A stretch of 44,973 nt of DNA from Desulfobacteraceae bacterium (lineage in GTDB: Bacteria > Desulfobacterota > Desulfobacteria > Desulfobacterales > JAABRJ01). Position 1 is the first letter of the stretch; each line of letters opens with the position of its first letter. The notes beneath the pieces were generated by a model. It was not told the origin of the DNA, did no database searches, and was given only the letters and a program-made list of their open reading frames with translations. The stretch is from assembly GCA_022340425.1 (NCBI GenBank), contig JAJDNY010000153.1:1-44973 (forward strand). The letters run 5' to 3'. The translations under genes were made by a program, and so were the position numbers. Positions 12,068 to 18,121 of the stretch are shown one piece after another.

Positions 12068-12691
12068 TCAGCCCCGGGGAGGGAATTCGGGAAAGGGGCC
12101 GGATGGTGACCGCAGCAGAAAAACCGGGGCTTTCTTGGAGGTGGTTTTCGGCCGCCGGCACAGCGCCCACCAGAGGCCCAGGACGACCGGCACGACCGCC
12201 AGCAGCGCCCAGCTGCCGTGGGGCAGGGCCGCCAGGTGAACCGACCAAACGTCCGCCAGCAGGACGCCGGCCGCTGCCGTCAGGCCCGCCCAGATCGATA
12301 CGCCCACGGCATCCAATAGCAGAAAGCGCAGTCCACCAATGGGCCCCATGCCGATAGCCAGCGGGATCACCGTCCGCAACCCATACAGAAAGCGGAAACC
12401 CACAATCAGCGGCAGACGGCAGCGCCGCTCAAGGCCTTGCGCCCGCTTCAGGCGGACCTGCCACAGGGGCCGGCGCGCCAAAAGCGCCTGTCCGCCGATG
12501 CGGCCCAGGCCAAAGAGCAACAGATCGCCGCAAAAGGCGCCCAGCAGGGCGGCCGCCATCACGGCGGAAATGTCCAGACAGCCCTGACGGGCCAGCATTA
12601 CCGCCACGATCAGGACGGCTTCCCCCTCGACGAGCGCCCCGAAAAAGACCGCGGCATAACCGTAGGCGGCGATGAAATCGGCGGTTGTCAT
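12068..12691 (-). CDS. DedA family membrane protein
   Basis: This 207-aa inner-membrane protein belongs to the DedA (SNARE-associated Golgi) family, whose members support membrane homeostasis and in some bacteria flip polyprenyl-phosphate or phospholipids. Diagnostic sequence includes GALVEGEAVLIVA near the N-terminus with acidic residues in a membrane segment, GAFCGDLLLFGLGRIGG, and the arginine-rich RFLYGLRTVIPLAIGM. It is the last gene of a four-gene operon, only 13 bp after the Lgt-like gene. Its neighbours, a phospholipid decarboxylase and a diacylglyceryl-transferase-like protein, suggest a lipid-linked role here. A GGGGCT/AGCCCC hairpin spans the stop codon but has no T run. Confidence 0.88.
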   Translation of the reverse strand: MTTADFIAAYGYAAVFFGALVEGEAVLIVAVMLARQGCLDISAVMAAALLGAFCGDLLLFGLGRIGGQALLARRPLWQVRLKRAQGLERRCRLPLIVGFRFLYGLRTVIPLAIGMGPIGGLRFLLLDAVGVSIWAGLTAAAGVLLADVWSVHLAALPHGSWALLAVVPVVLGLWWALCRRPKTTSKKAPVFLLRSPSGPFPEFPPRG

Positions 12692-12704: not shown

Positions 12705-13754
12705 TCAAATACGGTCCTGAAGAACGTGGAAGTGAATTTTGGCGCCGGTCACCTGGCTTCGGCCGGTGTAGAGAAACGCAAACAGCCACAGCGCTTGCAG
12801 AAAAACCAGCACCCCGGGCTGCCAGAGGCTCCACAACCCGGCCAGGATGTCAACGGCCGCAACCGAGGGCGGGCAAAGGAGGGCGAAGGGCACGGCGGCG
12901 CCGGCGGCCACCAGGCTCATGGTCTGATATTTGGAAATCCGGCCAGCCCCGCGGTAATCCGCCCGCAGGAACTCGGAAAAAAAACGCCACAGCTGGGTGA
13001 CCACCACCACCTCCAGAAAGGCGGCACGATACCATTGGCCGAAAAAAAGGGCAAGCCCGAACGCCGCCGCTGCGCAGTAAACGATGGCTGTGACCGCCTG
13101 GACCGGCACCACCGGCTCGCCGTCAAGGCCGTCGGCAAAGGCGATCTTTTTGGTAACGCCCTGAAAGACGAAACCGCGGTTGCCGAAGAGCCGGCGGATC
13201 AGCGGATGAGTCCCGGAAAGCGGCTTGCCGTAGCAGCAACCGAAGCTGATGCAGGCCAGCCGCCCGACGCCTTCGCCGACCGCGTAGGCGATCGCAAGCG
13301 CGGCCAGGGTGGCGGCAAGCGGCAGCTCAACCCCCATTCGGGCTCCCAGCACCCGCCCGAGGCCCCAGACCAGCGGCGGCCCGCCCAGAATACCGACAAA
13401 GGCCGCCCCCCCGACACTGAAGGTGTATTTCTTTTTTTCCACCAGGCGCGCGATCAGCTTGGATGCCGGCACGCAAATCCCCAGCAAGACCGCCACTATC
13501 AAGAAAAACCCGGCGCATGGGATCCCCAGCGCCGCCAGCAGGCAGATGCCGACGGCCGTGGCCAGCAGGTAGGCATTGGCGTTGAAAACGCCGTAGTAGG
13601 TCAGATTGACGCCGCGCCAGCAACCGTCCGGCTGGCGCACACTGGGCAGCGAGGCCAGAAACTGCCATTTTTCGCGCGGCAGGTGGCGAAACCCCCAGAC
13701 CAGCATCACGGCCGTCAACAGGCAAAAACCGGCGACAAAAAGGGCTGCGGCCAC
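12705..13754 (-). CDS. Lgt-like (prolipoprotein diacylglyceryl transferase family) membrane protein
   Basis: This 349-aa polytopic membrane protein resembles Lgt, which moves diacylglyceryl from phosphatidylglycerol to the lipobox cysteine of prolipoproteins. Residues 159-178 (VGEGVGRLACISFGCCYGKP) align in style with the Lgt GR...N..YG signature, and LWRFFSEFLRADYRGAGRIS (256-274) with its C-terminal arginine region. The paired cysteines in FGCCYGKP and the long N-terminal part make it an atypical member, so its substrate may differ. I chose the GTG at 13754 because AGAGG lies 7 bases upstream and a membrane segment follows at once; a longer frame would run into the upstream decarboxylase gene. 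Gap to that gene is 64 bp. Confidence 0.8.
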   Translation of the reverse strand: MAAALFVAGFCLLTAVMLVWGFRHLPREKWQFLASLPSVRQPDGCWRGVNLTYYGVFNANAYLLATAVGICLLAALGIPCAGFFLIVAVLLGICVPASKLIARLVEKKKYTFSVGGAAFVGILGGPPLVWGLGRVLGARMGVELPLAATLAALAIAYAVGEGVGRLACISFGCCYGKPLSGTHPLIRRLFGNRGFVFQGVTKKIAFADGLDGEPVVPVQAVTAIVYCAAAAFGLALFFGQWYRAAFLEVVVVTQLWRFFSEFLRADYRGAGRISKYQTMSLVAAGAAVPFALLCPPSVAAVDILAGLWSLWQPGVLVFLQALWLFAFLYTGRSQVTGAKIHFHVLQDRI

Positions 13755-13818
13755 GACGGCACCTCTTTTTTTGGGGTTGAAGGACGCGCGCCGAACGAAA
13801 CCCGCCGGCGCGCCCGGG

Positions 13819-14865
13819 TCAAACCGGTTCGGGGCCGGCGGCAGCCGCCGGCAGGGCCCTACCGATGGCGGCCCGCACCGCCACCTCCGTTTCCACCAAG
13901 GGCTGGCCGAAGCCCTGGGAGTAGCGGCTGACGGCGTCCCGGCGGAACATGTTGGCGACGATATCCTCGGAAAAACGGACCCGGTCTTTTTCAAAAATCA
14001 GAACGTCCACCGAACTGCCCGGCCGGTAGAGGCTCTTGGGCTGTCCGCGCTGCAAGAAGTCCCCCGGCCGGACCGGCCGGGGGGCGTCGTAGCGGCTGTC
14101 GCTGTAACACTGGACGATATCCCCGATCATCAGGGCGACCACCTCGATCATGGCGACGTGGCCGGCGCAGGTGCCGCCCGGCACATCGGTATCGATGACC
14201 GTGACCACGCGCTTGTTCTTGGAAAAGGGGGTCACCGCCGCCACCACGGCGCCCGGGTTGCAGGCGTGGTAGCACCCGTCAAGGGCGTAGTGGTCCACCA
14301 CCCGCCCGGCCACGGGGCTGTGGTTGTAATGGTATTTTTCGGGGGTCAGCCGGAAGAGGGCGAAATGGCCGTCTTGGAAAAGGTCACGCCAGTCCGGGCG
14401 CCGAACACCCAGCAGTTCGTCGCCGTCGAAGAACTTTTCCTTAATGAAGAACCGGGTCTGATCGCCAAACGCCCCCACCAGCATGCGAGCATCCGCCGGG
14501 GCCACCACCGCGGCGGGGTCGGCGGGCATGGGACGGGTGTCCCAGTAGCGGATTCGCCGCTCGAAGACCGCCCGGGGCGAGTCCAGCGCCGCGCGCCCCC
14601 CCAGACACTCGGAGAGATCGATGCCCAGGGCGTGGATCAGGCGCTCGGCGCCTGAAAGGTTTCTCCCCTGCCGCCGGCCGTAGTTCAAAAGGCCCAGCAG
14701 GCGGGAGACGCGGGCCGAGGTCAGGGCGCGGAAAAGCACCGGCGCGCGCTCGCGCAGCGGCGTGTAGAGCAGGTTGACCAGACGGTCGGCAAACAGCCTT
14801 TCGTCGCGCACGCGGGCCGTCTCGCGTTCGATGTACTGGTGGGGGGTCAGGTAAGCAGCCCTCAT
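13819..14865 (-). CDS. psd: Phosphatidylserine decarboxylase
   Basis: This 348-aa enzyme would convert phosphatidylserine to phosphatidylethanolamine. Key sequence includes VAPADAR (D125), FRLTPEKYHYNHSPVAGRV with histidines 179 and 182, and the self-cleavage site RPGSSVDVLIF (G283-S284), where the serine becomes the pyruvoyl group. The site is GSS instead of the common GST, a conservative change. Length exceeds the short PSD-A type and matches longer proenzymes. The ATG at 14865 overlaps the upstream stop codon as ATGA, so the two genes are probably translationally coupled; a GTG nine bases further upstream is possible. It is the second gene of the lipid-type operon. Confidence 0.9.
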   Translation of the reverse strand: MRAAYLTPHQYIERETARVRDERLFADRLVNLLYTPLRERAPVLFRALTSARVSRLLGLLNYGRRQGRNLSGAERLIHALGIDLSECLGGRAALDSPRAVFERRIRYWDTRPMPADPAAVVAPADARMLVGAFGDQTRFFIKEKFFDGDELLGVRRPDWRDLFQDGHFALFRLTPEKYHYNHSPVAGRVVDHYALDGCYHACNPGAVVAAVTPFSKNKRVVTVIDTDVPGGTCAGHVAMIEVVALMIGDIVQCYSDSRYDAPRPVRPGDFLQRGQPKSLYRPGSSVDVLIFEKDRVRFSEDIVANMFRRDAVSRYSQGFGQPLVETEVAVRAAIGRALPAAAAGPEPV

Positions 14866-17282
14866 CGGACGCACTCCCCGGCACCGGCGGCCTGACGCCG
14901 GCGGTCGCGCTCCAAAGTCAGCAGCATCACCTGAATGGTGGTGCGCAGGGTGCCGGGGTCGGCCTGGGCGGTCAGCAAGTCGCGTTTGACGCCGCCCAGA
15001 AAATCGGGGGCGCTGCGGCCCCCCAAGAGGGTGTAGAGGTCCTTGTTGAAGGTCCCCTCGCGCCAGGCCGAAAAGGCGTCGATGGCCTTGAAGTCCTCCT
15101 CCAGTAGCCCGAAAGCATCCTGGATGGCCCTGTTTTTGAGCCCGTCGCGGTAATAGCGCTCGGCCGCGGTGTTGAATTCGGCCCCGGAGAGCTGCAGCGG
15201 GTGCTCGGCCCCCGCCGTTTCCAGGATGCCCATGGTCAGCCTGCGCGCCGCGCCGCGCTCCGGCGCCGCCAGACGCGCGGCCAGATCCTCGATCACGTCC
15301 CCGAGACCCATCTGCTCGATGAGCTCACGGCCGTCGCTGCGGATGGTCTCCACCAGGGCCTGACAGTAGGCCTGCCGCTGGACCCGCACGTAGCCCTTGT
15401 AGCGTCGGCTGAGGCGGGTGTCTTGGACCGTTCCCAGGATACGCGCCAGAAACCGGTTGCGGGTGTCCTGGCGGACGTAAAAGGTCGGAATCCCGACGGC
15501 CGCCCCGAAAAAAATCTGGCGCCGCTCGCTTTCAACGAAGGGGTCGTCGGGGATCTGGGCGTGGGTCACGTCGTTTCGCAGGACGTAGCCGAAGGCCAGC
15601 GCAGTCAGCAGCACCTGAAGGTCGGCCGCCGGTCCCATGTCTTCCATAATGTCGTGAAACATGCTGAAGTGACGGCCCTCGAAGCCCGAATAGCCCATGG
15701 TGCCGAACTGGCGCAGGCGATAGGCGAGATAAATCGACATCGCCGGGTCGAAGACCCCCATGGAAGCCAGGTCCTCCTTGAGGCGCTGTTCGTTGCCCAG
15801 CCGGCCGTCCAGCGCCGGGCTGCTGGCGGTGCTGAGCAGGGCTGCGGGGTAGTCCAGGAGGCGAAAATCGTCCACCAGGTCCCCCCGCAGGCCGAGGAAG
15901 CGGGGAATGCGCCGATCCAGCCATTCGGGGCCGAAGGGCGTCAGCGACCGGCCGCAGCAGCTCAGCGAGGCCTTTTTCTTCCAGCGCCGCCAGAGCATCC
16001 GCAGGTGGGTGAAGTCCAGCTCGTGGGGCAGAAAGCCCAGCACCTTCTCGGGGTGAAAGTCCTGAAAGTCCAGCCGGTAGGGGGCCGCGCTGTAGGTGCC
16101 GACAAAAAGCGGCAGAAAGTGCTCGACGATTTTGATCACCAGGTCGCCCATGTGCTTTTCGGCCGCGGGGCCGAAACCGGGCACCCCGGCTTGCAGCAGG
16201 GCCGAGAGCTTGCGGCTGCCGATGCTGACGTGGGTGCCGTTGTTGGCCAGGCTGGTGTTGGACACATCGGGCAGCACGATCAGGTTGCGGGTGATGATCC
16301 CGGCCTCCTTCAACTTGGCCACGGCGTTGAGCTGGCTGCGGGAGAGCACCTGGTGGCAGAGCACCATGTAGCGGTGTTTTTTTTCGCCGCAGTCCCAGCC
16401 GGAAAGGCAGGGGCTCATGAAGAGCTCGCGGTAGAAGCCGTCGGAGATCAGGCGGTTGAGCCGTTTCTGGCGCAAGGGGGGGTTGGGGGCGAAATAGACC
16501 GTCACCTCCTGCCCGCTTTGCGTCAGCCCGAAGTGCCGGTTGGCGAAGGCCATCAGAAATTGGGCGAGCAGAAAACGCCGCAGGGTCTCGCCGGCGATGG
16601 CCGCACCCGGCGAAGTCTGACCGTCGCCCGCCACGGGATGGAAGGAGAAGGTCTCAGGCGAGGTGTTGTCGCTTAAAAAATGGCGCAGGCAGCGCTCGCC
16701 ACTGATCCGCACCAGGGAGGACGGGTCCGCATCGCCGATAGCCTCCGCCAGGGACAGCTTGAGCAGGTAGCTCACCGGCACCCGCAGCCAGGTCGCACCG
16801 TTCTGCCGCAGAAAAAACCGCTCGCAGTCGCCGCGCCGCGGCCCGGGGCAGCCCTTGTCGGCTTGCAGGTCGCGCTCCAGCACGCTCCGGGCATAGCTCC
16901 CTAAGCGCTCCAGGGGAAACCGCACCCAGCTGTTTTCCCAGACCCCTTCAGGGTTGTCCGCCAGATGGGCAGCCAGCTCCGAGACGCTGCGCTGGGAGGC
17001 GTCGCCGGTCAGGGCCCGCCGCTGCAGGTTGCGATAGTAATTGGACTGGGCGATCATCAGCGGCAGGTCGACGGTCTGGCCCGAGCCGAGGACGGCGGTC
17101 TGCAGCTCGTTTTCCGAGCCGAGGGTGGCATCTCCGCCGGCAAACGGCAGCGAGGCGGCAAATCCGGCGGCGGAGGTGGTCTCGATCCCCAGCAGGTCCG
17201 CGACCCGGCGGCAGTCGAAGGTGGGCTCCGGCGCCGCTGCGGGCTCCGGCACCACGCGCAGATGGGCGCTCTGTGGGCTCAT
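14862..17282 (-). CDS. Large conserved-looking protein of unknown function (806 aa)
   Basis: I do not recognise this 806-aa protein. It has no signal peptide or clear membrane segment and should be cytoplasmic. Notable stretches are a Cys-containing segment CPGPRRGDCERFF (about 145-157), NNGTHVSIGSRKL (about 347-359), YRLDFQDFHPE (about 402-412), a basic WRRWKKK (431-437) followed by SCCGRS, and GTMGYSGFEGRHFSMFHD further on. Clusters of H, D, E and R look enzyme-like, but no known catalytic motif can be named. It is the first gene of an operon with phosphatidylserine decarboxylase (ATGA overlap), an Lgt-like protein and DedA, so a role in phospholipid or lipoprotein metabolism is a contextual inference. 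The ATG at 17282 has GGAGG five bases upstream. Confidence 0.75.
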   Translation of the reverse strand: MSPQSAHLRVVPEPAAAPEPTFDCRRVADLLGIETTSAAGFAASLPFAGGDATLGSENELQTAVLGSGQTVDLPLMIAQSNYYRNLQRRALTGDASQRSVSELAAHLADNPEGVWENSWVRFPLERLGSYARSVLERDLQADKGCPGPRRGDCERFFLRQNGATWLRVPVSYLLKLSLAEAIGDADPSSLVRISGERCLRHFLSDNTSPETFSFHPVAGDGQTSPGAAIAGETLRRFLLAQFLMAFANRHFGLTQSGQEVTVYFAPNPPLRQKRLNRLISDGFYRELFMSPCLSGWDCGEKKHRYMVLCHQVLSRSQLNAVAKLKEAGIITRNLIVLPDVSNTSLANNGTHVSIGSRKLSALLQAGVPGFGPAAEKHMGDLVIKIVEHFLPLFVGTYSAAPYRLDFQDFHPEKVLGFLPHELDFTHLRMLWRRWKKKASLSCCGRSLTPFGPEWLDRRIPRFLGLRGDLVDDFRLLDYPAALLSTASSPALDGRLGNEQRLKEDLASMGVFDPAMSIYLAYRLRQFGTMGYSGFEGRHFSMFHDIMEDMGPAADLQVLLTALAFGYVLRNDVTHAQIPDDPFVESERRQIFFGAAVGIPTFYVRQDTRNRFLARILGTVQDTRLSRRYKGYVRVQRQAYCQALVETIRSDGRELIEQMGLGDVIEDLAARLAAPERGAARRLTMGILETAGAEHPLQLSGAEFNTAAERYYRDGLKNRAIQDAFGLLEEDFKAIDAFSAWREGTFNKDLYTLLGGRSAPDFLGGVKRDLLTAQADPGTLRTTIQVMLLTLERDRRRQAAGAGECVR

Positions 17283-17425
17283 GCATACCTCCAATGGTGG
17301 GTGGATGCCCCCACGGGGCCGCGACCCCATCCGGGGCAGGGCACCGTCGGGGCGGGTCGACGACCCGCAACCCGTCGCCGCGATGGGTTCTTTTTTTTCC
17401 GCAGCTTATATCGGCCTCGAATATT

Positions 17426-17533: not shown

Positions 17534-18121
17534 ATGGAATCCCGAATGCCCACCCGAACAGAGGCCTTTGCCCTTCTGCAGAAGTACAACCGCAGCGACA
17601 GCCTGATCAAACACGCCCTGGCCGTGGAGGGGGTCATGCGCCATTTCGCCCGCCAAAACGGCCAGGACGAGGAAAAGTGGGGCATCGTGGGCCTGGTCCA
17701 CGATCTCGACTACGAGCAGTTCCCCGAAGCGCACTGCCGCAAGACCGAGGAGATCCTGACCGCCGAGGGGTGGCCCGCGGAGATGATCCGCGCGGTGGTC
17801 AGCCACGGCTGGGGCATCTGCTCGGAGGTCCGGCCGGAGTCGCCGATGGAGAAAACCCTCTACGCCGTTGACGAACTCACCGGGCTGGTGGCCACCACCG
17901 CGCTGGTGCGCCCCAGCCGCAGCGTGCTGGACCTGACCGCCCAGTCGGTCAAGAAAAAATGGAAGGACAAGCGCTTCGCCGCCGGGGTCGACCGCACCAT
18001 CATCGACCGCGGGGCGGAGATGCTGGGCATGGACCGCAGCGCCCTGATCACCGAGACCATCCTGGGCATGCGGACGGTGGCCGAGGCCATCGGGCTCGCG
18101 GGACAGCCCGCCCAACCATGA
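17534..18121 (+). CDS. HD-domain hydrolase
   Basis: This 195-aa cytoplasmic protein has an HD phosphohydrolase domain, a metal-dependent family acting on nucleotides and other phosphate esters. Metal ligands are visible as H27 (LIKHALAVE), H56-D57 (GLVHDLDYE), a later SHGWG and D in YAVDELTG. The substrate is unknown; similar small HDIG-type proteins are widely annotated only as hydrolases. The ATG at 17534 follows GAGGAG, with an alternative ATG four codons on. Its stop codon overlaps the start of the MFS gene as ATGA, so the two are coupled. Confidence 0.88.
   Translation: MESRMPTRTEAFALLQKYNRSDSLIKHALAVEGVMRHFARQNGQDEEKWGIVGLVHDLDYEQFPEAHCRKTEEILTAEGWPAEMIRAVVSHGWGICSEVRPESPMEKTLYAVDELTGLVATTALVRPSRSVLDLTAQSVKKKWKDKRFAAGVDRTIIDRGAEMLGMDRSALITETILGMRTVAEAIGLAGQPAQP

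Follow-up and report, generated by a model that had tools for sequence, protein, structure and literature searches.

A 44,973-nucleotide contig of a Desulfobacteraceae bacterium (JAJDNY010000153.1, positions 1 to 44,973, assembly GCA_022340425.1; this whole stretch is referred to as the window) carries a gene for an 806-amino-acid protein, here P806, that is followed on the same strand by PSD2, a second phosphatidylserine decarboxylase (PSD), and by LgtL, a paralogue of the prolipoprotein diacylglyceryl transferase Lgt. On balance we favor the view that P806 is a soluble enzyme that uses ATP to ligate a carboxylate to an amine or thiol, and that it heads a dedicated, co-inherited trio of genes for an unusual lipid headgroup. 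The cassette points to a novel pathway of membrane lipids in sulfate reducers and related bacteria, and no description of such a pathway turned up in the libraries and literature searched: no work joining PSD with prolipoprotein diacylglyceryl transferase and glutamate-cysteine ligase was returned by the literature searches, which did not extend to the Iyer et al. 2009 survey of amidoligases, and searches with looser gene combinations gave, among the matches listed, no title on such a cassette.

The predicted fold of P806

P806 very probably has the carboxylate-amine ligase fold – that of glutamate-cysteine ligases (GCL), glutamine synthetases (GS) and Pup ligases – and belongs to the superfamily of these enzymes. 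An AlphaFold (AF2) model computed from 58 sequences (mean predicted local distance difference test score, pLDDT, 92.5; predicted template modeling score, pTM, 0.93) shows the curved beta sheet packed on helices of the GS-type fold. When the model was compared to known structures with VIA-align, the top entries were GshF (3ln7_B; Z 16.7, 3.9 Å over 377 residues) and GshA (1v4g_C; Z 16.7, 4.2 Å over 416 residues), followed by the YbdK proteins 1tt4_A (Z 15.9) and 1r8g_A (Z 15.3), PafA (Z 14.6), Dop (Z 14.4), plant and yeast GCL (Z 12.4 and 10.1) and glutamine synthetases (Z 9.2 to 6.5). The best 25 entries all belong to the GCL/GS/Pup-ligase superfamily (Z 16.7 to 6.5), while the 26th, which is unrelated, has a Z of 3.1. 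Because entries within one Z unit count as tied, the nearest subfamily is left undecided. Foldseek alone ranked the same families first (best E 2.6e-3). Against a library of viral structures the model had no match below E 0.001. The initial annotation, which proposed a structure-model search, could not place the protein in a family; with the model it can be placed.

Searches with the sequence gave a different picture. P806 matched no Pfam or NCBIfam family at E values up to 1, had no match in PADLOC or (phmmer) among PDB sequences, and gave only noise against PHROGs; a profile of the 58 sequences reached no better than E 0.73 against PDB sequences. Scanned singly against Pfam and NCBIfam, the 58 members gave scattered noise (best E 0.0053, in one member), and none reached the curated cut-offs of PF04262, PF04107 or PF03136: judged by sequence, P806 is not assigned to any of the three. 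The earlier verdict of an unknown family thus stands for the sequence libraries and falls for the fold, and P806 is, as far as the searched libraries show, a new family in a known superfamily.

Conservation and distribution of P806

The P806 family is strongly conserved, to a degree that chance does not explain: P806 aligns over nearly its full length with 57 other sequences, which are 46–56% identical to it, at a mean column identity of 54%. In a comparison of 48 genomes P806 had a mean pairwise distance of 0.477, vs. 0.545 for the housekeeping PSD. The alignment holds 58 of 66 full-length sequences; those omitted contained runs of N (L038) or an internal stop (L005, L060), or were left out for space (L009, L027, L035, L050, L070), and at least two genomes seem to have been entered twice (L036/L065, L039/L073).

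Homologues sharing about half of their residues are distributed patchily across the phylum (36 of 296 genomes) and were found in 22 of 96 order-level relatives. A scan for short peptide patterns in contigs from 84,980 species gave 29 loci – mostly from Deltaproteobacteria or families thereof, a few unplaced – although such a scan would miss distant relatives outside the group. Cultured hosts of the cassette include Desulfosarcina widdelii PP31 (L025) and Desulforhabdus sp. TSK (L036). One cassette (L041) lies on a metagenomic contig binned as Victivallales, reflecting either cross-phylum transfer or mis-binning. A weak second match to P806 in genome G143 (E 9.3e-5) was taken as chance; the matching open reading frame (ORF) is presumably an aminopeptidase, to judge from how it reads.

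Invariant residues of P806

The GhExE ATP-binding motif, described in the available text of PMC7947786 as common to the superfamily, is present in every aligned P806 (Table 1), with S, V, T, C, A or I mostly at the h position, which is thus not always hydrophobic. D72 and E116 are likewise invariant (58/58), as are the residues of three further motifs around H351, around E535 and R537, and in ESERRQ. In a sub-threshold hhalign alignment with GCS2, the family of YbdK, H351 falls on the YbdK sequence HVHVG, residues ~387–403 on the YbdK VPHFIALSAASPYM helix, and E535 and R537 on the E-x-R strand. Read together with the N-terminus, this places the landmarks in the YbdK order: GxExE, xHVxxG, LP...SP/APY, ExR. 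GshA uses E27 and E29, a histidine near position 150, E328 and R330, probably in similar positions.

Several results weigh against the assignment of P806 to this superfamily and against its reading as a ligase. With Foldseek alone the model had no match under E 0.001. Profile comparison by hhalign with GCS2, GshA and Pup-ligase alignments assembled for this analysis, the significance of which was judged from 40 block-shuffles, gave scores of 24.6 for GCS2 (reached by 3 of 40 shuffles) and 18.7 for Pup ligase (29 of 40), neither of which is significant; the score for GshA was 28.1 (0 of 40), but that alignment is out of register with the fold. Neither Pfam, NCBIfam nor hhalign gave a sequence-level link to any member of the superfamily. 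The residue correspondences with GshA and YbdK come from the sub-threshold alignment and from background on these enzymes, and not from a residue-level structure alignment. Finally, enzymes of the Dop branch use this fold to hydrolyze amides instead (PMC7947786, in the text available). Because the profile comparisons are not significant, membership of the superfamily rests on fold and motif.

That last point opens an alternative. P806 might be a Dop-like hydrolase that cuts a headgroup amide made by the other two proteins, Dop being both a fold match and an enzyme that hydrolyzes with the same fold; or it might be a regulatory protein without catalysis. We regard this as improbable. The invariance of GxExE, H351, E535, R537 and ESERRQ in all 58 sequences argues against lost catalysis, although it does not decide between ligase and hydrolase.

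The nearest known families resemble P806 and depart from it in several respects. GshA and GshF (PF04262 and relatives) share the overall fold, GxExE near the first strand and, plausibly, the placement of the ATP-ligase residues, but they have ~510 amino acids vs. 806 and ~10–12% identity, and P806 sits in a lipid cassette. PF04262 was found in none of 148 phylum genomes. Glutathione synthesis by P806 was considered and dropped on indirect grounds: both PF04107 and PF04262 are absent from the genome, and the cassette partners are lipid enzymes. YbdK (GCS2, PF04107) shares fold and landmark order but has ~370 amino acids and gives no significant profile match, whereas P806 contains large insertions and, toward the C-terminus, a helical part. 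PafA and Dop (PF03136) share the fold and the GhExE motif, but not a sequence signal.

Linkage and co-inheritance of the three genes

Loci of up to ~20 kb around P806 were taken from 51 genomes which, with the window, gave a set of 52. P806, PSD2 and LgtL lie together on one strand in 50 of these; the two without the trio (L106 from genome G023 and L140 from G025) hold truncated copies of P806. In one locus (L107) PSD2 starts 2.5 kb past the end of P806, in another (L108) PSD2 and LgtL are separated by a glycosyltransferase, and a third (L105, genome G036) has retained PSD2 and LgtL although its P806 is broken into two frames. The split P806 in G036, and the truncated copies without partners in G023 and G025, are signs of cassette decay. 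Across the 29 contigs from the peptide-pattern scan, PSD2 follows P806 in 27 and LgtL in 25, the absent ones being at contig ends.

The association also holds when the search starts from the partners. A strong match to PSD2 (>300 bits) is present in 20 of the 96 relatives, and all 20 have P806; the relatives with P806 but no strong PSD2 are G023 and G025, both with the truncated copy. Similarly, 18 of 19 PF01790 matches below 45 bits in the 96 genomes adjoin P806, the 19th (G066) being a piece of a split gene. Distances between genomes (48 compared) are correlated within the trio at 0.62, 0.72 and 0.60, vs. 0.37, 0.36 and 0.40 with the housekeeping PSD. The initial annotation had made its proposal of a lipid-related step depend on the linkage to psd, which is conserved; of the phylogenetic profile that it suggested with three neighboring genes, the part concerning PSD2 and LgtL held, while the third gene, which encodes a DedA protein, adjoins the trio in this genus only.

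PSD2 and LgtL as additional copies

Beyond its family match (Table 1), PSD2 aligns to E. coli Psd with an hhalign probability of 98.6 and has the D and H catalytic residues and the GS self-cleavage site of the family: D125, H182, G283 and S285 are present in 68 of 68 aligned sequences and S284 in 66. Because these residues are kept, PSD2 should mature and decarboxylate. It is not the only PSD of its hosts. Another PSD is encoded elsewhere in all 20 relatives with P806 and PSD2 (a partial match only in G000), vs. more than one PSD match in just three of 74 relatives without P806 (G007, G039, G047); at the level of the phylum, all 32 genomes with P806 have at least two.

LgtL matches Lgt with an hhalign probability of 98, and its AF2 model (pLDDT 95.4) matches E. 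coli Lgt (5azb) at Z 13.6, the next entry being at 6.2; a search of its profile against PDB sequences with hmmsearch did not find Lgt, which fold comparison did. A housekeeping Lgt is encoded elsewhere, in addition to the LgtL copy. Since housekeeping copies of both enzymes exist elsewhere, PSD2 and LgtL are taken to be extra copies kept with P806.

E. coli Lgt uses Y26, R143 and R239 for its lipid donor and for catalysis; its HGGL histidine, H103, is essential and is proposed to contact the lipobox peptide (both from the available text of PMC4728403). In the hhalign register LgtL keeps equivalents of Y26, G27, F102, G154, R239, E243 and R246; among 45 sequences (44 of 48 candidate frames plus the window; L098, L100, L113 and L126, which have long N-terminal extensions, were omitted) the equivalent of R143 is present in 44 and that of R239 in all 45. 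LgtL thus combines the Lgt fold with the catalytic arginines. H103, on the other hand, is replaced by V, A, I, L, C or T in 45 of 45, and Lgt NGELWG gives way to FGCCYG, of which the GCCYG of this signature loop is invariant. Because the HGGL histidine is replaced, we call LgtL an Lgt-fold protein and not a lipoprotein Lgt. Donor-side residues kept, H103 replaced and the GCCYG loop together suggest that LgtL uses a diacylglyceryl donor as Lgt does, but a different acceptor. In the window the loop reads C-I-S-F-G-C-C-Y-G (residues 248–256 in ORF numbering), with three invariant cysteines at Lgt NFINGELWG; it is a possible catalytic thiol or metal site.

These substitutions bear on a second alternative, that the trio modifies proteins: P806, like a Pup ligase, would act on a protein or lipoprotein anchor, and LgtL would be a second lipoprotein transferase with a special substrate. 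In its favor, the fold matches of P806 include PafA and Dop, and LgtL has the Lgt fold. Nevertheless, the histidine proposed for lipobox binding is replaced in every LgtL, the scheme has no role for PSD2, and no gene for a small substrate protein or Pup-like partner recurs beside the cassette among ORFs of at least 90 amino acids (Pup itself is too short to show). We hold protein modification to be quite unlikely. Of the "unrecognised step in lipid or lipoprotein processing" first suggested for the locus, the lipid part is retained along with the linkage to psd; lipoprotein processing is less likely than headgroup synthesis because the histidine of HGGL, on the acceptor side, is missing from LgtL and because a separate housekeeping Lgt exists.

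Phosphate genes near the cassette

Genes for Pst, PhoU or Pit proteins (pho genes) occur in the flanks of 9 of the 52 cassettes vs. 1 of 72 stretches surrounding housekeeping lgt or psd, taken as controls (Fisher p 0.0017). Hosts with pst genes adjacent to the cassette include G362 and G349. In the phylum-level set the numbers are 8 of 32 vs. 0 of 32 and, minus the two genomes in which the pattern was first noticed, 6 of 30 vs. 0 of 32 (p 0.0097). The queries include Pst/PhoU proteins from five test loci (L107, L126, L127, L129, L138); the nine loci were the same when only outside references were used. A large glycosyltransferase combining PHP and GT4 parts is near 6 of 52 cassettes and 0 of 72 controls (p 0.0046). 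Both sets of p values are optimistic, because the genomes are related.

The cassette lipid is probably made under phosphate scarcity in at least some hosts. Against this must be set that the association is limited to a minority of loci (nine of 52), that the pattern was first seen in scan loci, two of which recur among the test loci, and that the window has no pho gene in the stretch examined.

A sulfate reducer is known to change its lipids in response to phosphate: according to the text available of PMC5193443, glycolipids and ornithine lipids replace phospholipids in Desulfovibrio alaskensis G20 when phosphate is limited. The cassette shares with that response the kind of organism and possibly a common trigger, and the GT4 glycosyltransferase near some cassettes is a further point in common. 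The enzymes differ: MGDG and GADG are made by Agt and ornithine lipid by OlsF, and that text describes no carboxylate-amine ligase, PSD or Lgt paralogue. The same source reports two unidentified D. alaskensis lipids that lose headgroups of 199 and 213 Da and are worth comparing with cassette products.

A possible pathway

The trio is best read as the three enzymes of a dedicated pathway, the chemistry of which we infer, that would make an unusual lipid headgroup of amino-acid or peptide type. P806 would activate a carboxylate as an acyl-phosphate with ATP and couple it to a small acceptor of amino-acid type, at its amine or thiol; LgtL would move diacylglyceryl from phosphatidylglycerol or a similar donor onto a small molecule, and not onto a prolipoprotein; and PSD2 would decarboxylate the amino-acid headgroup via its pyruvoyl group. 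The sequence in which these steps occur is a guess, as are all the substrates. A more specific version – to which we attach only a small probability – is an undescribed lipid in which P806 makes a peptide-like or amide headgroup, LgtL adds the diacylglyceryl of phosphatidylglycerol through an ether or thioether, shifting Lgt chemistry from proteins to small molecules, and decarboxylation by PSD2 yields a phosphorus-free, amine-bearing substitute for phosphatidylethanolamine (PE) for use by sulfate reducers and related bacteria under phosphate scarcity.

About equally doubtful is the alternative that the product is an N-modified PE: PSD2 would make a PE-like amine to which P806 couples an amino acid or dicarboxylate, giving an amide-extended phospholipid, with LgtL transferring or remodeling diacylglyceryl. 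PSD2 has the D, H and GS required for the PSD reaction and its gene directly follows, and often overlaps, that of P806; moreover, N-acyl- and N-acetyl-PE are reported from a sulfate reducer (PMC5193443, in the text available). Such a product, however, would be as costly in phosphorus as PE – a poor fit with the pho neighborhood – and PE is already supplied by the housekeeping PSD, while LgtL is left with no clear role.

Should the proposed headgroup pathway be correct, folds from thiol metabolism, PE synthesis and lipoprotein maturation would have been recruited into one lipid pathway, found across many families of a phylum that matters in anoxic sediments. Such a pathway would account for the seemingly redundant second PSD and Lgt genes in many such genomes, would provide a directly testable target of three genes for aminolipids that are still unassigned in anaerobic environments, and would possibly be the first instance of Lgt-type chemistry on a small molecule.

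Gene organization at the locus

Table 1. Features of the P806 locus in the window.
Feature	Position	Strand	Evidence
P806, 806 amino acids, carboxylate-amine ligase (GCL/GS/Pup-ligase) fold predicted; first gene of the cassette	14862–17282	minus	ORF, 58-sequence alignment, AF2 model, fold matches
G-x-E-x-E, codons 55–59, ATP-binding motif of the superfamily	17106–17120	minus	G55, E57, E59 in 58/58
NGTH, codons 348–351; H351 proposed metal/ATP histidine	16230–16241	minus	N348, G349, H351 in 58/58
F-E-G-R, codons 534–537; E535 proposed metal ligand, R537 proposed phosphate-binding arginine	15672–15683	minus	E535, R537 in 58/58
ESERRQ, codons 584–589, invariant helix motif	15516–15533	minus	all six residues in 58/58
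GGAGG, Shine-Dalgarno-like, 5 nucleotides ahead of the ATG at 17282	17288–17292	minus	direct reading
PSD2, second PSD paralogue, ATGA-coupled to P806	13819–14865	minus	PF02666, 120.7 bits
LgtL, Lgt paralogue, conserved part (frame open to 13994)	12705–13757	minus	PF01790, 29.3 bits (cut-off 24.9); hhalign; AF2 model
DedA/VTT protein, downstream, outside the conserved cassette	12068–12691	minus	PF09335, 44.8 bits

The frame first annotated for P806, for which no strand had been given, is exact and lies on the minus strand, where it encodes 806 amino acids and a stop; the plus-strand frame over the same positions is interrupted by stops. An alternative in-frame ATG at 17330 would give 822 amino acids, but the 806-amino-acid start is preferred because of the GGAGG ahead of it. 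The annotated ATGA overlap with the psd gene is present at 14862–14865, the TGA of P806 (14864–14862) overlapping the ATG at 14865. Since the gene upstream (an HD-domain gene at 17534–18121, plus strand) is divergent, P806 is the first gene in its strand run, in line with its supposed place at the head of the operon.

The neighbors originally named – PSD, an Lgt-like protein and DedA – are all borne out by family matches (Table 1). DedA, however, does not belong to the coupling as was first thought: the window and L032, which is of the same genus, are the only loci where it adjoins the trio, and in L094 a DedA gene lies farther away on the opposite strand. DedA was rejected as a component of the system because it is not conserved at the loci. 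The HD-domain gene, too, is next to the cassette in the same genus only. The PHP-GT4 glycosyltransferase recurs near cassettes in L025, L026, L041, L092, L093, L094, L103, L108 and L111; in L026 it stands, together with a radical SAM gene, between PSD2 and LgtL (L026:6612-9128 and L026:9142-10458).

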